DNA of 64,000 nt from Methylocystaceae bacterium (GTDB lineage Bacteria > Pseudomonadota > Alphaproteobacteria > Rhizobiales > Beijerinckiaceae): positions 1 through 64,000 of the forward strand of contig WSXZ01000018.1 of the NCBI GenBank assembly GCA_009773555.1, given 5' to 3'. The notes under the pieces were generated by a model. The model did not search any database. It was given only the letters and a program-made list of their open reading frames with translations, and was not told the origin of the DNA. This document shows, in pieces, positions 32,994 to 44,393 of the stretch (within the stretch, counting starts at the first letter, position 1; each line of letters opens with the position of its first letter). The position numbers and the translations under genes were made by a program.

Positions 32994-33539
32994 ATGCGAG
33001 CCAAATCCGCGCCGCCGTGCGATGAAAAGATCGCGCAGGCGAAGCTTCTCTACGACTCGGGCGTCACGCCCATCGGCGAAATTCTCGAACTGCTCGGCAT
33101 GAGCGTCGGGCGGTTCCGCCGCTTTCGCGAAATTCACGGCTGGCCGCTGCGCGCCTCCGCCTGCGCACCCCGCAGAAAAGCGACGGACGAAACGCCGCCG
33201 GCGAAGAAACCGCGCGACGCGGGGCGACTCATCGCGCGGCTCGAAGACGCCGTCGAACAGGAATTCGCCCGCGCCGAAGTGGCGCTCGCCAAACATGCGC
33301 CCAAAACCATCGAGACGAGCGCCCGCACGCTCGCAAGCCTCGTCAAAACGCTCGGCGAGTTAAAGCGCATGCGGCGCGAGAGCGAGGACAAGAAGAACGA
33401 CGCAGACGATGACAGCGACCAATCCGTCGGAGACGCGAGCGAAGGAGGCGGCGACGCGCCGCCCCGCGAATTGGCCGAACTCCGCGCGGAGCTTGCTCGA
33501 CGACTTGAGCGCCTGCGCGGCGCAGGGCCGACTGAGTGA
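32994..33539 (+). CDS. GTA/phage small terminase-like protein
   Basis: MRAKSAPPCDEKIAQAKLLYDSGVTPIGEILELLGMSVGRFRRFREIHGWPLR; immediately upstream of large terminase. Confidence 0.6.
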   Translation: MRAKSAPPCDEKIAQAKLLYDSGVTPIGEILELLGMSVGRFRRFREIHGWPLRASACAPRRKATDETPPAKKPRDAGRLIARLEDAVEQEFARAEVALAKHAPKTIETSARTLASLVKTLGELKRMRRESEDKKNDADDDSDQSVGDASEGGGDAPPRELAELRAELARRLERLRGAGPTE

Positions 33540-34786
33540 GACGCTCGACGGTCTGAGCGCGAGAGAACTGGCGCGGCTTCTCGACGAGTGGGAATTCATC
33601 GCGCGCCGCGATCAATGGCCGCCGCATTTGGCCGCGAGCGGCGCGCCGTGGCGCACATGGCTGATCCTTGGCGGACGCGGCGCGGGCAAGACTCGCGCCG
33701 GCGCCGAATGGGTCAAAGCGCTGGCGCTCGGACGCGCGCAATTTTCGCTCCGCCCGCTCGGGCGCATCGCGCTTGTCGGCGAGACGGCGGCTGATGTTCG
33801 CGAAGTGATGGTCGAGGGCGTCTCCGGTCTTCTCGCCGTGCATGGGCCGCGCGAGCGGCCGCGCTGGGAGACGACGCGAAAGCGGCTCGTCTGGGACTCG
33901 GGCGCCGTGGCGCAGGCGTTTTCGGCGGAAGATCCGGAAAGCCTGCGCGGCCCGCAGTTTCACGCCGCCTGGTGCGACGAACTCGCCAAATGGCGCTACG
34001 CCAGGGAGACATGGGACATGCTGCAATTCGGCCTGCGTCTCGGCGACTGGCCGCGTAAAAGAGCTGATCGCGCATCCGACGAGCGTCGTGACCCGCGCCT
34101 TGACGCGCGAGAACGCCGCCAATCTGGCGCCGTCGTTTCTCGAAAGCGTCGTCGCGCAATATGCCGGCACGCGATTGGGCCGCCAGGAGCTCGACGGCGA
34201 AATTCTCGACGAGCGCAAGGACGCGCTATGGACGCGCGACATGCTGGAGCGCGCCCGCGTCCATGAGGCGCCGCCGCTCAAGCGCATCGTCGTCGCCGTC
34301 GATCCGCCGGCGAGTTCGGGCAAGCGCGCCGACAATTGCGGGATCGTGGCGGCAGGGATTGAACAGGCAGGCATGCTCTACGTGCTCGCCGACGCGACTT
34401 TGTCGGCGGCGCGGCCGGCGCAATGGGCGCGCGCGGCGATCGCGCTCTATCACAGACTTTCGGCCGACACGCTTGTCGCCGAAGTCAATCAGGGCGGCGA
34501 GATGGTGCGCGCCGTGCTGAACGAAGCCGATCCGTCGGCGCCGGTGACGATGGCGCGGGCGACGCGCGGCAAATATTTGCGCGCCGCGCCGGTCGCGCAG
34601 CTTTATGAACAGGGCCGCGTCAAACATGTCGGCGCCTTTCCGGCGCTCGAAGACGAGATGTGCGATTTCGGCGCCGACGGGCTTTCGTCGGGGCGCAGTC
34701 CCGATCGACTCGACGCTCTGGTCTGGGCGATCACGGCTTTGGCGCTGACGCCGAAAGCGCCCGAGCCGCGCATGCGGCGGGTGTGA
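33409..34786 (+). pseudogene. GTA/phage large terminase, frame-broken near 34051-34056
   Basis: LILGGRGAGKTRAGAEWVKAL (Walker A), FHAAWCDELAKW (Walker B) in frame 1; nuclease half VAVDPPASSGKRADNCGIVAAG...DRLDALVWAITAL in frame 2. Confidence 0.85.
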
Positions 34787-35019: not shown

Positions 35020-36144
35020 ATGCCCTCTCTCTTCTCGCGACTCATCGGCGCGGTCGCGCCGCGCGAAACCAAATATTCGCGCGCGGCGAAGCTCCTCGCC
35101 ATGCATGCGCTCGGACAGCCGCATTGGAGCGCGCGCAATTCGACGGTGCTGACGCGCGAAGGCTATGAGCGCAACGCCGTCTGCCATCGCTGCGTGCGCA
35201 TGGTGGCGGAAGCCGCCGCCTCAGTGCCCTGGCTTATCTATGAAGGTCGCGACGAGGCGGTCGACCATCCGCTGATCTCTCTCATCGAGCGGCCCAATCC
35301 GCTCGACACCAGCGCCTCCTTCATCGAGGCGATCTGCGCCAATCTGCTGCTTTACGGCAACGCCTATGTCGAATCCGTCGTCATCGACGAGGAGCTGCGC
35401 GAACTTTACGCGCTGCGGCCCGACCGCATGAGCATCGAGGCGGGACGCAACGGCTGGCCCGCCGCCTTCATCTATCGCGCGCTGGGACAGGAGGCGCGCT
35501 ACGAGATGCGCGGCGAAGGGATCGAACCGATCCTGCATATCAAATTCTTCAATCCGCTCGATGATTATTACGGCTTTCCGCCGCTCGCCGCCGCGCAAGT
35601 GGCGCTCGACACGCATAACGCCGCGAGTTTCTGGAACAAGGCGCTGCTCGACAATTCGGCGCGCCCTTCAGGCGCCCTCGTCTATGCGGGGCCGGAAGGC
35701 GCGCATCTGAGCGACGAGCAATTCTCTCGGCTGAAGGAAGAGCTGGAAGAGAATTTCTCCGGCGCGACCAACGCCGGAAGGCCGCTGCTGCTCGAAGGCG
35801 GGCTCGACTGGAAGGCGCTGTCGCTTTCGCCCAAGGACATGGATTTTGCCGAGTCGAAGGCGGGCGCCGCGCGCGAGATTGCGCTCGCCTTCGGCGTGCC
35901 GCCGCTGCTGTTGGGCCTGCCCGGCGACAACACCTTCAGCAATTACGCCGAGGCCAATCGCGCCTTCTGGCGCCAGACCGTTCTGCCGCTCGTCGCGCGC
36001 GTGCAGAAGAGTTTTCAGGCCTGGCTGCGGCCGGGCTTCCGCTTTCCTCACGCTCGACGAGCAGCGCGAGGCATTGGGCTATGGCCCGGCGCCGAAAGAG
36101 GCGCTCGTCGCCAAACGCGATGTCGGTCTGGAGCGCCGCTATAG
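35020..36144 (+). CDS. GTA-like portal protein, C-terminus lost through frameshift (portal copy 1)
   Basis: AKLLAMHALGQPHWSARNSTVLTREGYERNAVCHRCVRMVAEAAASVPWLIYEG...FGVPPLLLGLPGDNTFSNYAEANRAFWRQTVLPLV; tail after RPGF is out of frame relative to copy 4. Confidence 0.88.
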   Translation: MPSLFSRLIGAVAPRETKYSRAAKLLAMHALGQPHWSARNSTVLTREGYERNAVCHRCVRMVAEAAASVPWLIYEGRDEAVDHPLISLIERPNPLDTSASFIEAICANLLLYGNAYVESVVIDEELRELYALRPDRMSIEAGRNGWPAAFIYRALGQEARYEMRGEGIEPILHIKFFNPLDDYYGFPPLAAAQVALDTHNAASFWNKALLDNSARPSGALVYAGPEGAHLSDEQFSRLKEELEENFSGATNAGRPLLLEGGLDWKALSLSPKDMDFAESKAGAAREIALAFGVPPLLLGLPGDNTFSNYAEANRAFWRQTVLPLVARVQKSFQAWLRPGFRFPHARRAARGIGLWPGAERGARRQTRCRSGAPL

Positions 36145-36853
36145 CCCGGAACAGCCGCGCGTCCCGGCGGGAAATTCCGGCGGCGGGCAATGGACGAGCG
36201 GCGGTGGCGGCGGAGATTCGGGAGGCGGGTTTAGCGGCGCGCGAGATGTGGGGGGCCGCGTCCAGACTGCGCAGAACACGAATCCAAATGTCGCGAGCGA
36301 TGCGGACAACCCCCTCACGCGCGTGCAAAGCCGGCGCGTTGCGGGTGGAGAGAATGTCGCCTTCAATCGAGATCATGAACTCAACCGCGGAATTGAATCT
36401 CAGGTTCATCAGGTACAGAACAGACGATACGATGTCGAACTTGCTGAAGAAGAGCACGGTCCTCATGATGGCCACACGATCCGCGATCACGTAGGCAAAA
36501 GCGACGAAAATCTGAAAGAGCGCAGCGCAAGAACACGAACCCGCGTCGGCCCCTTAGGATTTTGGAAACGACGGATAGGAACATTTCCTTCCGTGATCGC
36601 GGCGAACAAATTGGTAAATTCTACGCTTTCACGGAGTCCTGCACTCGTAGAGGAAGTGGCTTCCGGACGAGTGAGCGCCGCGACACTGGAAGCTTGGTTC
36701 TTGACGCCTACCGGTAAGGAAGCATACGCGCCCAAATTCAATTCCAACGCCATCATCCGCGATACGTTTGGCGTCCGAGTCCTAATCACCCACGTAGCAG
36801 GGTCCAAAAGGGGATTTAAGGTTTTCACTGCTTTCCCGATTAACGACGACTGA
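36041..36853 (+). pseudogene. toxin module 1: portal C-terminal end + RVPAGNSGGGQWT Gly-rich linker + RNase A/CdiA-CT-like domain, out of frame with portal copy 1
   Basis: AFLTLDEQREALGYGPAPKEALVAKRD...HDGHTIRDHVGKSDENLKERSARTRT...IRDTFGVRVLITHVAGSKRGFKVFTAFPINDD. Confidence 0.7.
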
Positions 36854-36871
36854 GACTACGTGAGGCATAGC

Positions 36872-37177
36872 ATGACTCTACCAGCGCCCTTTCGAAGATT
36901 CACTTCTTTTTTCCATCAGGATATCGACATTGCTTATAAGTCCCCCGAGGCATTGGTTGACGAAGCTCTACGAGACTTCACGCCGCAAGAGCGTCAAGCT
37001 CTCAAGGATTACATGAAAGAGCTGACCGACGGCAGATATGACGAAATGCAGCTGAGAGAAATCTGGCTGAAGAGCAGGGCTGAGGTAGTGCCTCTATGGG
37101 ATGACGAGGGGAACTGCACAGAGTTTCTAAAATACTTGCGTGAATTGGTCGAGAAGGACGTTCCGCCAGAAACATAG
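36872..37177 (+). CDS. CdiI_2-like immunity protein 1
   Basis: FFHQDIDIAYKSPEALVDEALRDFTPQERQALKDYMKELTDGRYDEMQLREIWLKS; paralogous to 37804 gene. Confidence 0.65.
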   Translation: MTLPAPFRRFTSFFHQDIDIAYKSPEALVDEALRDFTPQERQALKDYMKELTDGRYDEMQLREIWLKSRAEVVPLWDDEGNCTEFLKYLRELVEKDVPPET

Positions 37178-37793
37178 CTTCGATAGGGAAGGACGGCAGG
37201 AACCGCTCGCCTTCGGCGTCCCGCCGCTGCTGCCGGGCCTGCCCGGCGACAACACGTTCAGCAATTACGCCGAGGCCAATCGCGCCTTCTGGCGCCAAAC
37301 CATTCTGCCGCTCGTCGCACGCGTGCAGAAGAGCTTTCAGGCCTGGCTGCGGCCGGGCTTCGGACCTTTTCGCCTCGACTATACTGAAGAAGAGCGCGGT
37401 CTTCATGATGGCCACACGATCCGCGATCACGTAGGGAAGAGCGACGAAAATCTTAAACAACGTAGCGCAAGAACACGAACCAGCGTCGGCCCTATAGGAT
37501 TTTGGAAACCGCGCATAGGATCGTTTCACTCGCTGAGTGCGGCAAATAGATTGGTGAACTCGGCGCTTTCTCAAAACGCGGCTCTTGTTGAAGAGGTCGT
37601 AAAAGGGGGTAGGGAAGCTGCAATTCTGGAGGCTTGGTTTGATACGCCCACGGGAAAGGAAGCTTTCGCGCCGAAGTTTAATTCCTCGACCACCATTCGT
37701 GAAACTTTTGGAGTACGCATTCTCATCAGACATGATGGAGCATCGCCGCGAGGTTTTCGGATCTTCACCGCTTTCCCCATAAATCGAGACTGA
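37140..37793 (+). CDS. portal fragment fused to RNase A/CdiA-CT-like toxin module 2
   Basis: FRLDY joined to TEEERGLHDGHTIRDHVGKSDENLKQRSARTRTSVGPIGFW...IFTAFPINRD. Confidence 0.7.
   Translation: MNWSRRTFRQKHSFDREGRQEPLAFGVPPLLPGLPGDNTFSNYAEANRAFWRQTILPLVARVQKSFQAWLRPGFGPFRLDYTEEERGLHDGHTIRDHVGKSDENLKQRSARTRTSVGPIGFWKPRIGSFHSLSAANRLVNSALSQNAALVEEVVKGGREAAILEAWFDTPTGKEAFAPKFNSSTTIRETFGVRILIRHDGASPRGFRIFTAFPINRD
37203..37383 (+). repeat. portal gene fragment, copy 2
   Basis: LAFGVPPLLPGLPGDNTFSNYAEANRAFWRQTILPLVARVQKSFQAWLRPGFGPFRLDY. Confidence 0.9.
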
Positions 37794-37803
37794 GGCCGCA
37801 CCC

Positions 37804-38247
37804 ATGAAGCTTCCCGAAGTTTTTCAAGGGCTGACACTGTTTTTTCACCAAGACATCGACACAGCGTACAAAAATCTTGAAGAACTGGTGCACTTGGCCC
37901 TCTTCTCATACTCGCCGGCAGAGCGACAGGCTCTCAAGGATTATATGAAAGAGCTGACAGACGGCAGATATGACGAAACGCAGCTGAGAGAAATCTGGCT
38001 AAAGAGCAAGGCTGAGGTGCTGCCTTTTTGGGGAGATGAGGGAAGCTGTACCGAGTGCCTGATTTATCTACTTAAACTGATCGAAGAGGATGTTCCGCCG
38101 AACAGGCCGGGACGATACTTTCGTAGCCTGCGACTCGTTGCGATAAATCGCTCAGCTTTTCCTCTCGCAGATAGGGCCCTTCGGGCGCCCTCGTCTATGC
38201 GGGGCCGGAAGGCGCGCATCTCACCGACGAGCAGTTCTCGAGGCTGA
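37804..38247 (+). CDS. CdiI_2-like immunity protein 2 (3' end reads out of frame into portal fragment copy 3)
   Basis: LTLFFHQDIDTAYKNLEELVHLALFSYSPAERQALKDYMKELTDGRYDETQLREIWLKSKAEVLPFW. Confidence 0.65.
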   Translation: MKLPEVFQGLTLFFHQDIDTAYKNLEELVHLALFSYSPAERQALKDYMKELTDGRYDETQLREIWLKSKAEVLPFWGDEGSCTECLIYLLKLIEEDVPPNRPGRYFRSLRLVAINRSAFPLADRALRAPSSMRGRKARISPTSSSRG

Positions 38248-38420
38248 AAGAAGAGCTGGAGGAAAATTTCTCCGCTTTCGCCTCGACTATAACGCCGATC
38301 GTCTGGAAGCATTGGCGAGCGAGCGCGCCGCCGAATGGGAGCGCGTCGGCAAGGCCGCCTTCCTCACGCTCGACGAACAGCGCGAAGCATTGGGCTACGG
38401 CCCGGCGCCCAAAGAAGCGC
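38177..38420 (+). repeat. portal gene fragment, copy 3 (internal deletion ENFS to FRLDY)
   Basis: SGALVYAGPEGAHLTDEQFSRLKEELEENFS then FRLDYNADRLEALASERAAEWERVGKAAFLTLDEQREALGYGPAPKEALVAKRD. Confidence 0.85.
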
Positions 38421-39106
38421 TCGTCGCCAAACGCGATGCCACGCTGGAGCGCCGCTATAGCCCGGATCAGCCGCGCGTGCCGGCGGGAAGTTCCGGCGGC
38501 GGGCAATGGACAGGCGACGGGGGCGGCGGAGATTCTGGAGTCGGATCTAGCGGCGCGCGAGATGATCGCGCGCGGCGGCGGGACGCGGAGGACCGAGTCC
38601 GGACCGCGATGAACGCGAATCCGAATGTCGCGAGTGACGCCGATTCGGCGATCTCAAGCGTTCGGCACCGTTCCTTCGAAGTCGATCTAGCCGAAGAACA
38701 AGGCGGAGATCATGAAGGTCACGGATACAGCGAGCACGTTGGAAAAACTGAAGATTATCTGCGCAATCGGGTTCGCAACAGCTTGCAAGGAAACAGATAC
38801 CTGGGCCAAGCGGATACAAGAGCCGGGTCATTTACGTCTTTGGAGGCCGCCAACAAATTGGTAAACTCAACACTCTCCCAGAATCGATCAATAGTTGAAG
38901 CGGTGATCAAAGGGCAAATCGGAAAGGCGAGGATCCAATCAATTTTCCGGTCCGAGACCGGGATTGAAGCCTATACAGACAAACCATGGGATCCGAGTGC
39001 GCCCATTACCATCAGGGATACCTTCGGAGTCGCAGTCATAATCCTGAGAAACATCAAATCCCCGAGAGGCTTTTCGATCGTAACTGCGTTTCCATTCTCG
39101 GATTAG
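38312..39106 (+). CDS. portal C-terminal fragment + linker + RNase A/CdiA-CT-like toxin module 3
   Basis: RYSPDQPRVPAGSSGGGQWTGDGGGG...HEGHGYSEHVGKTEDYLRNRVRN...SFTSLEAANKLVNSTL...FSIVTAFPFSD. Confidence 0.72.
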   Translation: MASERAAEWERVGKAAFLTLDEQREALGYGPAPKEALVAKRDATLERRYSPDQPRVPAGSSGGGQWTGDGGGGDSGVGSSGARDDRARRRDAEDRVRTAMNANPNVASDADSAISSVRHRSFEVDLAEEQGGDHEGHGYSEHVGKTEDYLRNRVRNSLQGNRYLGQADTRAGSFTSLEAANKLVNSTLSQNRSIVEAVIKGQIGKARIQSIFRSETGIEAYTDKPWDPSAPITIRDTFGVAVIILRNIKSPRGFSIVTAFPFSD

Positions 39107-39116
39107 GGAGCGGCTC

Positions 39117-39473
39117 GTGGCCAAAAATTTTCCGCAAATATTCGAATCCATATGTCTCTCGATTGACCTTGGATTCTATTACAAGCACGCCTCTAAGAAG
39201 CCTTGGAGCGATATTGACGGGTTGCTGCAAAATGTCATCGCCGACGCCTTAGCTCCATACGATCGATCGGAGCTAATCACTTTACGCGACTATCTTGACG
39301 AACTTCTCGGTTCCAACGATCCGGCGGAGGTTCTGACAGAAACCTGGAACAGGATGAAGCCATTGACAGCGTTTTTCGGAGACGCGGAGGACGCCTCTGC
39401 AGATACCGGGATCGTTCACGTGTTCAAACAGGTTCGTCGCGCTATCGAGGAGAAGCTAACGAGCACGGAATAA
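39117..39473 (+). CDS. putative immunity protein 3
   Basis: 118 aa acidic protein directly after toxin module 3; size and layout similar to immunity 1/2. Confidence 0.5.
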   Translation: MAKNFPQIFESICLSIDLGFYYKHASKKPWSDIDGLLQNVIADALAPYDRSELITLRDYLDELLGSNDPAEVLTETWNRMKPLTAFFGDAEDASADTGIVHVFKQVRRAIEEKLTSTE

Positions 39474-39489
39474 CCATCCTTCTTAAAAG

Positions 39490-40110
39490 CGCCGCTCGCC
39501 GCCGCGCAAGTGGCGCTCGACACGCATAACGCCGCGAGTTTCTGGAACAAGGCGCTGCTCGACAATTCGGCGCGCCCTTCGGGCGCCCTCGTCTATGCGG
39601 GGCCGGAAGGCGCGCATCTCACCGACGAGCAGTTCTCGAGGCTGAAAGAAGAGCTGGAGGAAAATTTCTCCGTCGAAGGCGGGCTCGACTGGAAGGCGCT
39701 GTCGCTTTCGCCAAAAGATATGGATTTTACTGAGTCGAAAGCAGGCGCGGCGCGCGAGATCGCGCTCGCCTTCGGCGTGCCGCCGCTCCTGCTGGGCCTG
39801 CCCGGCGACAACACGTTCAGCAATTACGCCGAGGCCAATCGCGCCTTCTGGCGCCAGACCGTTCTGCCGCTCGTCGCGCGCGTGCAGAAGAGCTTTCAGG
39901 CCTGGCTGCAGCCGGGCTTCGGTTCCTTTCGCCTCGACTATAACGCCGATCGGCTCGAAGCCTTGGCGAGCGAGCGCGCAAGCGAATGGGAGCGCGTCGG
40001 CAAGGCCGCTTTCCTGACGCTCGACGAACAGCGCGAGGCGCTGGGCTATGGCCCGGCGCCGAAGGAGGCGCTCTTCGCCAAACGCGATCTTGCGTTGGAG
40101 CGCCGCTATA
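39490..40110 (+). repeat. portal gene fragment, copy 4 (longest downstream copy; 30-nt in-frame internal deletion)
   Basis: AAQVALDTHNAASFWNKALLDNSARPSGALVYAGPEGAHL through AFLTLDEQREALGYGPAPKEALFAKRD. Confidence 0.9.
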
Positions 40111-41009
40111 GCCCGGATCAGCCGCGCGTCCCGGCGGGAAGTTCCGGCGGCGGGCAATGGACGAGCGGCGGGGGCGGCGGAGATTCGGGAGGCGGCTCTA
40201 GCGGCGGGCGAGATGATCGCACGCGGCGGCGGGATGTGGAGGACCGAGTCCGGACGGCGCTGAACGCCAATCCGAATGTCGCGAGCGACGCGGACAACCC
40301 CATCACGCGCGTGCAAAGTCGGCGCGTCGGGGGCGGTGCCGGCGCCACGCCGGCGCAGTTCGCAAGAGAGACAATCACGGCGGAGCGCGCCGCACGAGCG
40401 ATGACGCGCGTGCAAGAACTCGATCCCGACTGGCGACCGCCGCAAACTCTCATCGATCCGGAGAACATCGAACATCGCATCGAACGCAATGAAAGCGATT
40501 TCAGCGAGGCGGACGCGCGCTACGCCGAGCTTCTGCGCGCAAAGTTCGGCGACAACATGCCGCCGCGCGATTCATTTCGTCGGCTGCGGACACGAGAATC
40601 GGTGATCGAAGAATTTTATCCATCTGGCGTTACAGGCCCGGAACAGGATCGGATCGATAGTCTGGCGCGAGATCCCGCATCGCCCCGTCAGCCCCGCTGG
40701 CCAGAGGTCGCGACAATATTGCGGTTGGAGAAAGAGACTGGCAGGCCCTTTAAGAGGTCAAGCGCCTCTGGCGCAGATTTCCAGAACGAGTTTGGTCAAA
40801 CATGGGATGCGGTAGGAAGCGATGCATCAGATCAGTTTTTCAATTACGAAGAGTTTACGAACCGCCTCAATAGGAAGCTGAGCAATCGTGCGGTTGACCG
40901 ATACGTCGTTGATCTTTCAGGCCTGGGCGGCAAGAATGCTGCAAGAGTATTGAGCTACATTTGGGGACTGCCCGTTGAAACACAGGCGCGCATTAGAGTT
41001 CTGAGGTGA
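39510..41009 (+). CDS. portal fragment + linker + nuclease-like polymorphic toxin domain (module 4, different family)
   Basis: RVPAGSSGGGQWTSGGGGGDSGGGSSGG linker; C-terminal FGQTWDAVGSDASDQFFNYEEFTNRLNRKLSNRAVDRYVVDLSGLGGKNAARVLSYIWGLPVETQARIRVL. Confidence 0.7.
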   Translation: MALDTHNAASFWNKALLDNSARPSGALVYAGPEGAHLTDEQFSRLKEELEENFSVEGGLDWKALSLSPKDMDFTESKAGAAREIALAFGVPPLLLGLPGDNTFSNYAEANRAFWRQTVLPLVARVQKSFQAWLQPGFGSFRLDYNADRLEALASERASEWERVGKAAFLTLDEQREALGYGPAPKEALFAKRDLALERRYSPDQPRVPAGSSGGGQWTSGGGGGDSGGGSSGGRDDRTRRRDVEDRVRTALNANPNVASDADNPITRVQSRRVGGGAGATPAQFARETITAERAARAMTRVQELDPDWRPPQTLIDPENIEHRIERNESDFSEADARYAELLRAKFGDNMPPRDSFRRLRTRESVIEEFYPSGVTGPEQDRIDSLARDPASPRQPRWPEVATILRLEKETGRPFKRSSASGADFQNEFGQTWDAVGSDASDQFFNYEEFTNRLNRKLSNRAVDRYVVDLSGLGGKNAARVLSYIWGLPVETQARIRVLR

Positions 41010-41013
41010 AAAT

Positions 41014-41421
41014 ATGTCGTCTCTCGTTACTTTCGACGCTATCGACAAGGAATGGCTGCCAATTTCCCGAGGGCAGTTCGAAGCCATATTGGGAGGAGCC
41101 TACGAACTCTATCTCGATCGCAACAAGGCGCCGCGCTTCGCCAAAGTCTTGTGGCCAAAAGTGCTTGGCTTCCTTCACGACGGCTGGCCCGACAAACACG
41201 AGTTTCCCGACGGAAAAGGTCTGGACTTTCTTGAATTCAGCGACTACCCGCGCGAGGAACGGATTGAATTGTTGCGTGCGATGGAGGCCTATTACGCCGA
41301 CTTCCAGCGCGATCAACTCGATCCTGGGCTGACCTGGATGCGCGAGCGCAAGGAGATTTTCACCCCTGCTTTCGAGGAAGTGATCGGACTGATGCGTGAG
41401 GAGCTCGCGGCGACATCGTAA
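41014..41421 (+). CDS. putative immunity protein 4
   Basis: 135 aa, 4 nt after toxin module 4 stop. Confidence 0.5.
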   Translation: MSSLVTFDAIDKEWLPISRGQFEAILGGAYELYLDRNKAPRFAKVLWPKVLGFLHDGWPDKHEFPDGKGLDFLEFSDYPREERIELLRAMEAYYADFQRDQLDPGLTWMRERKEIFTPAFEEVIGLMREELAATS

Positions 41422-41490
41422 ACGGTGTGCGCAGACCTCTTGGGTCATCGACCAAAAGGGTAAACTCCACTACCTCTTTGGAGGCCGGTA

Positions 41491-41799
41491 ATGTCCACCT
41501 GCTTTTTTTTCGATAGCGCCTTGCCGCTCGACCAGACCAAGGAGCTGCTCTCCCAAGCTCGTGAAAAATATCGAGACATTCTCCGCTACTTCTGGCTTTC
41601 GGAAGTCGAAGAAGCGAGGCCTCCTAATATTGAAGACGACGCCGAATACGGTTTCGATCCAAAATGTACCTTCCTGATCGAATGGAACAAAGAACGCTCG
41701 GAACTGCTCGAACTCATCCCCGCGATCTTTTATGAGGCGTTCGGCAAGGAGAATATCCTTGTACGCGACAACAACTACGACGTGGTCCCACCTCTCTAG
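41491..41799 (+). CDS. putative orphan immunity protein 5
   Basis: 102 aa acidic ORF with no toxin-like ORF immediately upstream, inside the cassette array. Confidence 0.4.
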   Translation: MSTCFFFDSALPLDQTKELLSQAREKYRDILRYFWLSEVEEARPPNIEDDAEYGFDPKCTFLIEWNKERSELLELIPAIFYEAFGKENILVRDNNYDVVPPL

Positions 41800-41811
41800 A
41801 TAGGTGATTGC

Positions 41812-41998
41812 CGGCGCGGCGCGCGAGATCGCGCTCGCCTTCGGCGTGCCGCCGCTGCTGTTGGGCCTGCCCGGCGACAACACCTTCAGCAATTACGCCG
41901 AGGCCAATCGCGCCTCTGGCGCCAGACCGTGCTGCCGCTCGTCGCGCGCGTGCAGAAGAGCTTTCAGGCCTGGCTGTGGTCGGGCTTCGCGTCGGGAA
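41812..41998 (+). repeat. portal gene fragment, copy 5 (frameshifted remnant)
   Basis: AGAAREIALAFGVPPLLLGLPGDNTFSNYAEANRA then 1-nt deletion relative to other copies. Confidence 0.88.
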
Positions 41999-42006
41999 TG
42001 ACTGAC
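41991..42006. repeat. remnant end of MITE/REP-like repeat (copy E)
   Basis: gtcgggaatgactgaca abutting portal copy 5. Confidence 0.4.
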
Positions 42007-42040
42007 AAACGCGCCGCCGGCCGGAAATACGAAACCGCCC

Positions 42041-42229: not shown

Positions 42230-42402
42230 GTCAGAACAATTGGCTGCCGCATTTCTTCAAGCGTCCGCGCGCGCGCCATGCGCGCATGCGGGACGATCCT
42301 TCCGCCGTCTTCAAGACCTTCGTCGAATTGCTGGCGCAATTGCGCGCCGACGCCCGCGCGGCGAACCATACGCCAATTAATGCTCAGGCGGAGAAAAGCT
42401 GA
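42226..42402 (+). CDS. small GTA-cluster hypothetical protein
   Basis: MSQNNWLPHFFKRPRARHARMRDDPSAVFKTFVELLAQLRADARAANHTPINAQAEKS; start overlaps previous stop. Confidence 0.5.
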   Translation: MSQNNWLPHFFKRPRARHARMRDDPSAVFKTFVELLAQLRADARAANHTPINAQAEKS

Positions 42403-43013
42403 TGACGGCGCTACAAAAAACGACGCCGAGTGCGGGCGCGCCGGAAATCAAGCGCGCCGAACTGCCGCTGTTGCGGTCGAATGAGGCCGGCGCCTTCTCG
42501 GGTTACGCCAGTCTCTTCGGCGTGGTTGATTCAGGCGGCGACATGGTGATGACCGGCGCCTTCGCGCGCTCGCTCATCAAGCGCGGCGCGCCGGGCGTGA
42601 AAATGCTGTGGCAGCATAACGCGGCCGAGCCGATCGGGCTTTGGACCTCGATCGTCGAAGATGCGCGCGGCCTCAAAGTCGAAGGCCGCCTCGATCTTTC
42701 GGTTGCGCGGGCGCGCGAGGCGCTGTCGCTGATGCGCAAAGGCGCGATCGACGGCCTCTCCATCGGCTTTCGCACGCGGCGCGCCACGACCGAAAAATCG
42801 AGCGGCGTGCGCCGCCTGCATGAAATCGATCTGTGGGAGATTTCCATCGTCACCTTTCCGATGCTGCCGCAGGCGCGCATTGGCGCGGTGAAGCAAAGTC
42901 GCAGTGACGCGTCACGCATGGAGGCGCTTGGCGCGAAGCTCTCGCGCCTGAGGGCGCAGCGCGCCGCGCTTGACTTCGCGCATGCGCTGCGGCGCGCCGC
43001 CGCGCGCTGCTGA
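42402..43013 (+). CDS. HK97-family prohead protease
   Basis: AGAFSGYASLFGVVDSGGDMVMTGAFARSL, MLWQHNAAEPIG, GLSIGFRT, EIDLWEISIVTFPM. Confidence 0.92.
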   Translation: MTALQKTTPSAGAPEIKRAELPLLRSNEAGAFSGYASLFGVVDSGGDMVMTGAFARSLIKRGAPGVKMLWQHNAAEPIGLWTSIVEDARGLKVEGRLDLSVARAREALSLMRKGAIDGLSIGFRTRRATTEKSSGVRRLHEIDLWEISIVTFPMLPQARIGAVKQSRSDASRMEALGAKLSRLRAQRAALDFAHALRRAAARC

Positions 43014-43166
43014 CCGACGCAGAAGAGAACAATCGTATCGATTCCCGCCTTGCCGTCGGGCGCAAATCAGCTCTCCAGACGGTCTTTCCCAAGCGCGCGG
43101 ACTTCCCGGCGACACCAGCCGCGGGGCGCTTTTCCGCGCGCCGCGCTCAAACACGAGGCTCTATAC

Positions 43167-44393
43167 ATGTCAGCAGTTGAAACGAAATCCGCCGGCGACG
43201 ATATTCTCGCCGATCTCAATCGCGCCTTCAGCGCCTTTAAAGAGACGAACGACGAGCGTTTGACGCAGCTCGAAAACCGCTTCGGCGCCGACGTCGTGAC
43301 CGAAGAGAAGCTCACGCGCATCGACCACGCGCTTGACGACACGAAGAGCCGGCTCGATCGCCTGGCGCTGGAAATGTCGCGGCCGCGCATTGGCGGCAAG
43401 ATCGTCGACGACCACAGCGGGCGCGAGCACAAAAGCGCCTTCAATCACTACATGCGCTCCGGCGAAGCCAGCGGCCTCAAAGCTCTCGAAGCCAAGGCGC
43501 TGTCGCGCGGCTCGGGCGCTGACGGCGGCTATCTCGTGCCGCTTCCAACCGAGCGGGACGTTCTGCGCAGACTCGCGAAGTTCTCGCCGATCCGCGCGAT
43601 CTCCAGCGTGCGCGAAATCTCCGGCGCGTCGCTGCGCCGCGCCTTTTCAACGACAGGTCCCGCCGCCGGATGGGTGGCGGAAGCCGATCCGCGCCCGCAG
43701 ACCAACAATCAGCAGCTCGCCGACATGACCTTCCCGGCGATGGAGCTTTACGCCATGCCGGCGGCGACACAGGCGCTGCTCGACGACGCCGTCGTCGACA
43801 TCGAGCAATGGATCGCCGAAGAGGTGCAAACCGCCTTCGCCGAACAGGAAGGCGCGGCCTTTGTCACTGGCGACGGGGTCAATAAGCCGAAGGGCTTTCT
43901 CTCCTATACGAGCGTCGCCGATTCAAGCTGGACCTGGGGCAATGTCGGCTATGTGGCGACGGGCGCCGCCGGCGCTTTCGCGGCGAGCGATCCTTCCGAC
44001 GCGCTCGTCAATCTCGTCTATGCGCTGCGCGCCGGCTTTCGCCAGAACGGCAAATTCGTCATGGGGCGGCGCGCGCAGTCGCTGGTGCGACAGTTCAAGA
44101 CGACGACGGGCGACTACATCTGGGCGCCGCCGGCGACCGCCGACGCCGGCGCTTCGCTGATGAATTTCCCCGTCGTTGAAGCGGAAGACATGCCGGACCC
44201 CGCCGCGAATTCTCTCTCCATCGCCTTCGGCGATTTCGAGCGCGGCTATGTGGTGGTGGACCGCGTCGGCATTCGCGTGCTGCGCGATCCCTACTCCGCC
44301 AAGCCCTACGTCCTTTTCTACACGACGAAGCGGGTCGGCGGCGGCGTGCAGAACTTCGAGGCGATCAAGCTGTTGAAATTCGCCGCGTCGTAA
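43167..44393 (+). CDS. HK97-family major capsid protein
   Basis: HMR-like prodomain then GSGADGGYLVPLPTERDVLRRLAKFSPIRAIS...DGVNKPKGFLSY...RDPYSAKPYVLFYTTKRVGGGV. Confidence 0.93.
   Translation: MSAVETKSAGDDILADLNRAFSAFKETNDERLTQLENRFGADVVTEEKLTRIDHALDDTKSRLDRLALEMSRPRIGGKIVDDHSGREHKSAFNHYMRSGEASGLKALEAKALSRGSGADGGYLVPLPTERDVLRRLAKFSPIRAISSVREISGASLRRAFSTTGPAAGWVAEADPRPQTNNQQLADMTFPAMELYAMPAATQALLDDAVVDIEQWIAEEVQTAFAEQEGAAFVTGDGVNKPKGFLSYTSVADSSWTWGNVGYVATGAAGAFAASDPSDALVNLVYALRAGFRQNGKFVMGRRAQSLVRQFKTTTGDYIWAPPATADAGASLMNFPVVEAEDMPDPAANSLSIAFGDFERGYVVVDRVGIRVLRDPYSAKPYVLFYTTKRVGGGVQNFEAIKLLKFAAS

Follow-up and report, generated by a model that had tools for sequence, protein, structure and literature searches.

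The window analysed here, a stretch of 64,000 nucleotides (nt) from the 4.0-Mb draft genome of a Methylocystaceae bacterium (contig WSXZ01000018.1), contains a gene transfer agent (GTA) cluster of the type known from Rhodobacter capsulatus (RcGTA), and the portal gene of this cluster is followed by an array of portal fragments, toxin domains (tips) and immunity-type genes. We propose that the array belongs to a polymorphic toxin system in which the portal protein of the RcGTA-type particle is the constant carrier and the tips would intoxicate recipients without cognate immunity, a reading that we regard as reasonably probable. The gene arrangement suggests that the GTA particle may deliver a toxin or police kin besides moving DNA.

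Intact Portal-Toxin Genes in Related Methylocystis Loci

The nearest named relatives of the window in our scan belong to the methane-consuming genus Methylocystis and include M. suflitae, M. silviterrae, M. rosea and strain H62. We compared the window with 17 other Methylocystis loci (L031-L047), eight of which (L031-L036, L038 and L039) carry an uninterrupted portal-linker-toxin open reading frame (ORF) with spare cassettes behind it. Each of these intact clusters has a single full-length portal gene, which codes for the portal (401 amino acids, aa), a conserved Gly-rich linker and a nuclease tip of the CdiA-CT type and is followed by an immunity gene; an orphan cassette consists of a portal 3' piece, a tip and an immunity gene. 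The pairing of tip and immunity gene is invariant for five tip families across the Methylocystis loci, and a tip that serves as a spare in one species holds the primary position in another. Primary copies of the E479-like tip occur in L031-L033 and orphan copies in L034 and the window; for the CdiA_C tip the primary copy is that of L035 and the orphan copy that of L038. Among the RNase A tips, type B has its primary copy in L036 and orphan copies in L032 and L034, and type C has primary copies in L034, L038 and L039 and orphan copies in L035 and L037. The CdiA_C tip matches its Pfam family (E = 1.5e-19) and 4g6v_A (E = 4.9e-32), and its neighbour gene matches 4g6v_B (profile, E = 4.7e-8; single sequence, E = 1e-5), which means that both chains of the solved CdiA-CT/CdiI complex 4g6v are matched by adjoining tip and immunity genes in Methylocystis. 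We take 4g6v_B to be the CdiI of Burkholderia pseudomallei 1026b.

The loci thus show the hallmarks of a polymorphic toxin system: a constant carrier (portal plus linker) joined to RNase A, CdiA_C or E479-like tips in different species, a putative cognate immunity gene directly downstream, and orphan cassettes that bring a piece of the carrier with them. The initial annotation of the window had recognized a layout like that of contact-dependent inhibition (CDI) and Rhs systems on a GTA-type portal, and this was borne out by the CdiA-CT tip families, the invariant pairing, the primary-orphan exchanges and the mostly purifying selection described below. We rejected the possibility that the array is an assembly artefact, since homologous arrays are present in several near-closed genomes (1-4 contigs).

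Two further observations were made in these loci. In L034 (4704-6576), five successive immunity-type genes, three of one family and two others, stand behind one tip as a polyimmunity stretch. In L040 (4140-4240, reverse complement), a complete portal is separated by an in-frame stop from the linker-tip segment (tip G), either as decay or for read-through.

Organization of the Array in the Window

The interval between the portal and protease genes holds five portal 3' fragments, four toxin tips and five immunity-type genes, and its repeats are 70-100% identical over 75-300 nt, far above chance. Together with the mapping of portal residues, this confirmed the earlier description of a long portal copy and incomplete ones behind it, with toxin-tip ORFs and small ORFs in between. 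All features below lie on the + strand, and the intact 401-aa Methylocystis portal of L036 gives the residue numbering for all portal pieces.

Module 1 (36038-36853) comprises portal residues 370-401 (36038-36133, frame-shifted), the QPRVPAG..GGQWT linker and an RNase A-type CdiA-CT tip (36422-36850; PF18431, E = 5.9e-11), with its CdiI_2 immunity gene at 36860-37177 (PF18593, E = 3.5e-7, above gathering). Module 2 (37140-37793) has portal residues 286-351 (37194-37391; PF04860, E = 7.2e-11) fused without the linker to an RNase A-type tip (PF18431, E = 8.7e-17), with matches to 5e3e and 6tba. The immunity gene of module 2 (37804-38247; PF18593, E = 2.4e-4, below gathering) shares 70% identity with the module 1 immunity gene over 37804-38100, and its 3' end overlaps the next portal fragment, which covers residues 207-267 (38142-38321, from the tblastn map) in another frame than the fragment that follows. 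Module 3 (38312-39106) joins portal residues 341-401 (38267-38449) through the linker to a third RNase A-type tip (PF18431, E = 8.2e-14; 5e3e, E = 0.005); the immunity-type gene behind it (39117-39473) belongs to no curated family and adjoins this tip type in relatives too. Module 4 (39492-41009) starts with portal residues 189-401 (39492-40100; PF04860, E = 2.4e-42) and continues through the linker and a helical pre-toxin domain into an E479-like CdiA-CT tip assigned by fold match, and the immunity-type gene at 41014-41421 is the first gene behind this tip in relatives. The array ends with a spare immunity gene (41491-41799) and a terminal portal scrap (residues 282-350, 41810-42015), in which residues 282-342 were mapped to 41810-41980; a similar scrap closes the array in relatives. 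The linker is present after portal copies 1, 3 and 4, and the tip of module 2 joins straight after FRLDY, just as originally described.

Toxin and Immunity Families

The tips of modules 1, 2 and 3 belong to one family, RNAse_A_bac (PF18431; E = 6e-11 to 9e-17), and only that of module 4 differs. Because three tips share this CdiA-CT RNase A family, the window holds two toxin types and not the four different toxins that had been listed at first. The window tips, the relatives and the toxin segment of Yersinia kristensenii all have the histidines of the GH and HVG motifs, without exception. The module 4 tip has no toxin match in Pfam, NCBIfam or PDB at the sequence level. Its structure model (40347-41006; pLDDT 82) gave a single significant Foldseek match, 5j4a_A (E = 3.3e-4, probability 1.00; next match E = 0.28), and as modelled the tip is folded like the CdiA-CT of B. 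pseudomallei E479.

Four of the five small ORFs adjoin their own tip, in agreement with the first reading of them as genes directly downstream of the toxins; the fifth (41491-41799) departs from it. This gene is a homologue of the CdiI of B. pseudomallei 1026b (profile A4 against 4g6v_B, E = 4.7e-8) and belongs to the CdiA_C/4g6v-type family, whose tip is absent from the window, and for this reason we consider it a spare immunity gene. The Pfam check called for by the initial annotation placed the tips of modules 1-3 in toxin family PF18431 and the first two small ORFs in immunity family PF18593, the second below gathering. The gene at 41014 has no Pfam or PDB sequence match and no fold match (model pLDDT 77, weak), and so it is assigned by position and pairing only.

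The helical pre-toxin domain of module 4 (~70 aa; 40347-40560) is common to E479-like, CdiA_C and DUF6883 tips and to standalone linker toxins; no specific Pfam family was found for it.

The Surrounding GTA Cluster and Its Damage

The region from 33 to 56 kb of the window has the gene order of an RcGTA-type cluster: terminase, portal, the array, protease, capsid, then head-tail and tail genes. Downstream of the array lie the prohead protease gene (g4, 42402-43013, from tblastn anchors) and the major capsid protein gene (g5, 43050-44393), and tail genes, identified by domain matches, continue to about 56050. The solved RcGTA portal, 6tba, has a match in the portal segment of module 4 (E = 2e-54), and the tail genes carry the GTA-specific domains GTA_TIM (E = 5.2e-135), Phage_TAC_11 (GTA-gp10), Rcc01698_C and NLPC_P60. 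With the terminase-portal-protease-capsid-tail order and these domains, the predicted genes identify the region as a Methylocystis RcGTA-type cluster, of a kind predicted to encode a domesticated phage-like gene-delivery particle.

In the window strain two head genes are damaged. The large terminase gene (33409-34786), directly upstream of the portal, is split by a frameshifting deletion of 38 bp, detected by alignment to L036, L031 and L035, into two frames (residues 1-217 and 229-471). The portal gene (g3, 35020-36039; PF04860, E = 3.3e-83) encodes residues 1-341 of 401 and is truncated by an 86-bp deletion, mapped by alignment to intact relatives, which takes out the codons for about residues 342-369 and puts the rest out of frame; the window portal is therefore not joined to toxin 1. 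The portal had been described as near-complete at 35020-36144, a description that has to be revised, as it ends at about residue 341 and is out of frame thereafter. The idea of an intact portal-toxin protein in this strain likewise had to be abandoned: a near-identical module 1 is in frame with the full portal in L036, and the effector is in frame with the portal in the relatives, but the fusion is broken by frameshift in the window strain. A full set of intact RcGTA-type head genes is thus lacking here. Since both the terminase and the primary portal-toxin gene are broken, the window GTA is probably dead, and the strain probably keeps only the spare cassettes and immunity genes.

Selection and Cassette Movement

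Ratios of nonsynonymous to synonymous substitution (dN/dS) were calculated pairwise by the Nei-Gojobori method, without a tree. The portal had a median dN/dS of 0.07; for families A, B and C, in that order, the medians were 0.27, 0.14 and 0.17 in the tips and 0.16, 0.08 and 0.30 in the immunity genes, with one immunity-C pair above 1. The tips and immunity genes are thus mostly under purifying selection. When portal copies were compared over a 141-nt segment, which is short, 31 of 35 had a copy elsewhere at least as close as any copy in the same genome. This suggests that cassettes are imported from relatives. An origin of the array by simple local tandem duplication is not favoured, as most portal copies are closest to copies of other genomes over that segment.

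Distribution Outside Methylocystis

In an order-wide survey of 298 genomes (RcGTA portal, E <= 1e-60; linker profile, E <= 1e-6), the RcGTA portal was found in 200 genomes and the linker in 45, and 41 of these 45 also carry the RcGTA portal (Fisher p = 1e-4, uncorrected for relatedness). The linker clusters around GTA loci, in that 29 of its 71 strong matches are no more than 5 kb from GTA head genes. The linker ORFs near head genes are mostly separate genes with a short N-terminal segment, the linker, often the shared pre-toxin domain, and varied tips, two of which weakly resemble the AHH and deaminase families; 18 of the 23 matches to the pre-toxin domain profile fall on linker ORFs.

In-frame fusions to an RcGTA-type portal were also detected beyond the genus. 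Methylosinus sp. Sm6 (L025) has an RNase A tip, other members of the class have a colicin E5 tip (L143, E = 5.9e-9) or, in L133, a fusion that is also present in the related viral contig L220, and two IMG/VR contigs carry Ntox37 (L072) and RNase A (L160) tips. A survey of alphaproteobacterial GTA portals for extensions past the linker, as advised at the outset, thus yielded toxin fusions in Methylocystis, Methylosinus and other class members. A divergent PF04860 portal in L189 has an RNase A tip, and in L165 (2389-4560, - strand) a Mu-type phage portal (PF06074) is joined via a similar linker to an ADP-ribosyltransferase exoenzyme domain. Among named phages, tblastn with the portal-linker junction found weak portal matches only and with the module 4 tip found nothing; at the tblastn sensitivity used, the portal-toxin system is absent from the phage record collection. 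The long portals of some other families (587-1006 aa open frames) were considered as fusions and discarded, the examined ones being stop-to-stop frames extended upstream.

Three side observations concern the linker and its partners. Standalone toxin-like proteins with ~45 N-terminal residues, the QPRVPAG..GGQWT linker and varied tips (L053-L055, L074-L132) occupy GTA gaps (terminase-portal, portal-protease, protease-capsid) and other sites in genomes of the order, and are possibly off-locus GTA cargo. A small conserved tip of ~70 aa without a Pfam match (VQDFVSNxCxGSIN...KCKKLL..DRFRK) occurs in L038 (6376-6642, reverse complement), L040, L058, L092 and L194, and sits behind the linker on portals of distant taxa. 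In L151 (2994-5120, - strand), the reading frame of an RcGTA-like portal continues into a degenerate linker and a TPR domain, with no known toxin.

Relation to Known Systems

MuF-linked polymorphic toxins of temperate phages are known (PMC3482391, PMC5576092), as are phage effectors of the PBECR, 2H, ART and Nudix types fused to portals (PMC5512222, PMC9503650), and so a toxin on a head protein is not new in itself. The MuF toxins also combine a phage head-associated N-terminal carrier, a variable C-terminal toxin and a small downstream immunity ORF within the same packaging gene module. They differ in that here the carrier is the portal itself without MuF, the element is a GTA, and the orphan arrays share carrier sequence; no MuF domain (PF04233/PF06152) was matched in the RcGTA-type fusions scanned, in which the carrier is always PF04860. 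The phage portal-effector fusions likewise place an effector on the portal, where it is proposed to be packaged and injected. Those have been discussed as phage-versus-host effectors, whereas the GTA portals carry CDI-type toxins with dedicated immunity genes and orphan cassettes. CDI systems share with the array the tip families (PF18431, PF18451, the E479 fold), the CdiI partners (PF18593, 4g6v_B) and orphan modules fronted by a carrier scrap, but the array's carrier is a GTA portal (PF04860) and not a CdiA filament with CdiB: in a search confined to the array, the ORFs contained portal and toxin/immunity domains and no FHA/TPS. The RcGTA of R. capsulatus resembles the window cluster in gene order, portal (the 6tba match) and GTA_TIM and other GTA-specific tail domains, and differs in its portal, whose 6tba chain has 396 aa and no tip. 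To our knowledge, no toxin is known for it.

Our search of the open-access literature found no paper that describes toxins on a GTA portal or polymorphic toxins fused to a GTA (subscription papers lay outside the search). The combination of CDI-type tips, immunity genes and a GTA portal, with portal fragments forming an orphan array, was likewise absent from the literature covered. The initial statement that this is not a standard described system accordingly stands for the GTA portal array and has to be qualified for portal-effector fusions, which phages also have.

Proposed Mechanism and Alternative Explanations

We envisage the following scheme. Cassettes would be imported mostly from relatives, and recombination in the shared portal and linker sequence may move an orphan tip into the primary position. 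The RcGTA portal is a dodecamer at one vertex of the head (PMC7296036). A C-terminal tip on such a portal could plausibly be loaded into or held at the GTA head, while the producer would be protected by its own immunity genes. The tips might leave through the tail along with the DNA, perhaps once the prohead protease has cut the linker (a guess), or be freed on lysis of the producer, and would then intoxicate recipients without cognate immunity; gene exchange would in this way be coupled to kin recognition. RcGTA ejects its DNA into the periplasm, and uptake proceeds via the competence system (PMC7296036). RNase tips would consequently have to cross the inner membrane by a route of their own. 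Such routes exist for CdiA-CTs, and a candidate for this crossing is the helical pre-toxin domain that three tip types have in common.

Several points weigh against this scheme. Ejection of the RcGTA type reaches the periplasm only, and a portal ring that bears twelve bulky tips could impede the packaging of DNA. The portal and terminase of the window strain are both frame-broken, and in six of the relatives (L037, L040-L044) the primary fusion is disrupted or absent, or portal scraps are found, which indicates frequent loss of the system; in L045-L047 the portal is plain, with neither array nor toxin. The immunity-type genes at 39117 and 41014 have no independent family match, the Fisher and dN/dS figures ignore relatedness among the genomes, and particle loading, toxin activity and intoxication are predictions from the gene arrangement.

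Part of this evidence would fit a selfish element, in which cassettes recombine into a conserved head gene at its 3' end and are maintained by addiction, cells that lose immunity being killed, so that the fusion is a by-product and the particles deliver nothing. The cassettes are mobile and carry portal scraps, immunity-only genes pile up in L034, fusions are broken in several strains that keep the cassettes, and linker toxins occur outside GTA loci too. We nevertheless consider this explanation unlikely, because eight species retain the 401-aa portal in frame through the conserved linker, and portal fusions recur in other lineages and portal families, which a random landing site would not predict. 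The tips being RNases or nucleases with co-located immunity genes, the portal-toxin could instead work in the GTA-producing cells, by stopping translation, killing on lysis or removing cells that lose the cluster. GTAs are made by a small fraction of cells, which lyse, and this would suit such a role. The immunity genes directly downstream should however protect the producer, and the diversity and swapping of tips are a signature of strain competition rather than of a fixed producer-side step, which makes this proposal improbable. That the array is a degenerate remnant of duplicated portal pieces and dead toxin fragments with no present function seems very improbable to us: the terminase and portal deletions of the window, the lack of a linker and portal end in module 2 and the different frames of the module 3 portal pieces would agree with it, but the tips and immunity genes are still open and under purifying selection, and intact versions exist in related species.

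Biological Significance

Why bacteria retain GTAs is a long-standing open question, as they kill their producers and cannot spread their own genes. If the proposed polymorphic toxin system is real, a head-borne toxin would give an immediate benefit, killing non-kin and protecting kin, and would make GTA transfer selective. Taken further, and held tentatively, some alphaproteobacterial GTAs might be two-in-one particles that carry DNA together with portal-anchored CDI-type toxins, such that only recipients with matching immunity survive. The GTA portal would be added to the carriers of CDI-type toxins, with orphan-cassette swapping taking place on a phage-derived head gene. Horizontal gene transfer would then bear a kin tag in the form of the tip, and this would help to explain why a costly, non-replicating GTA is kept.

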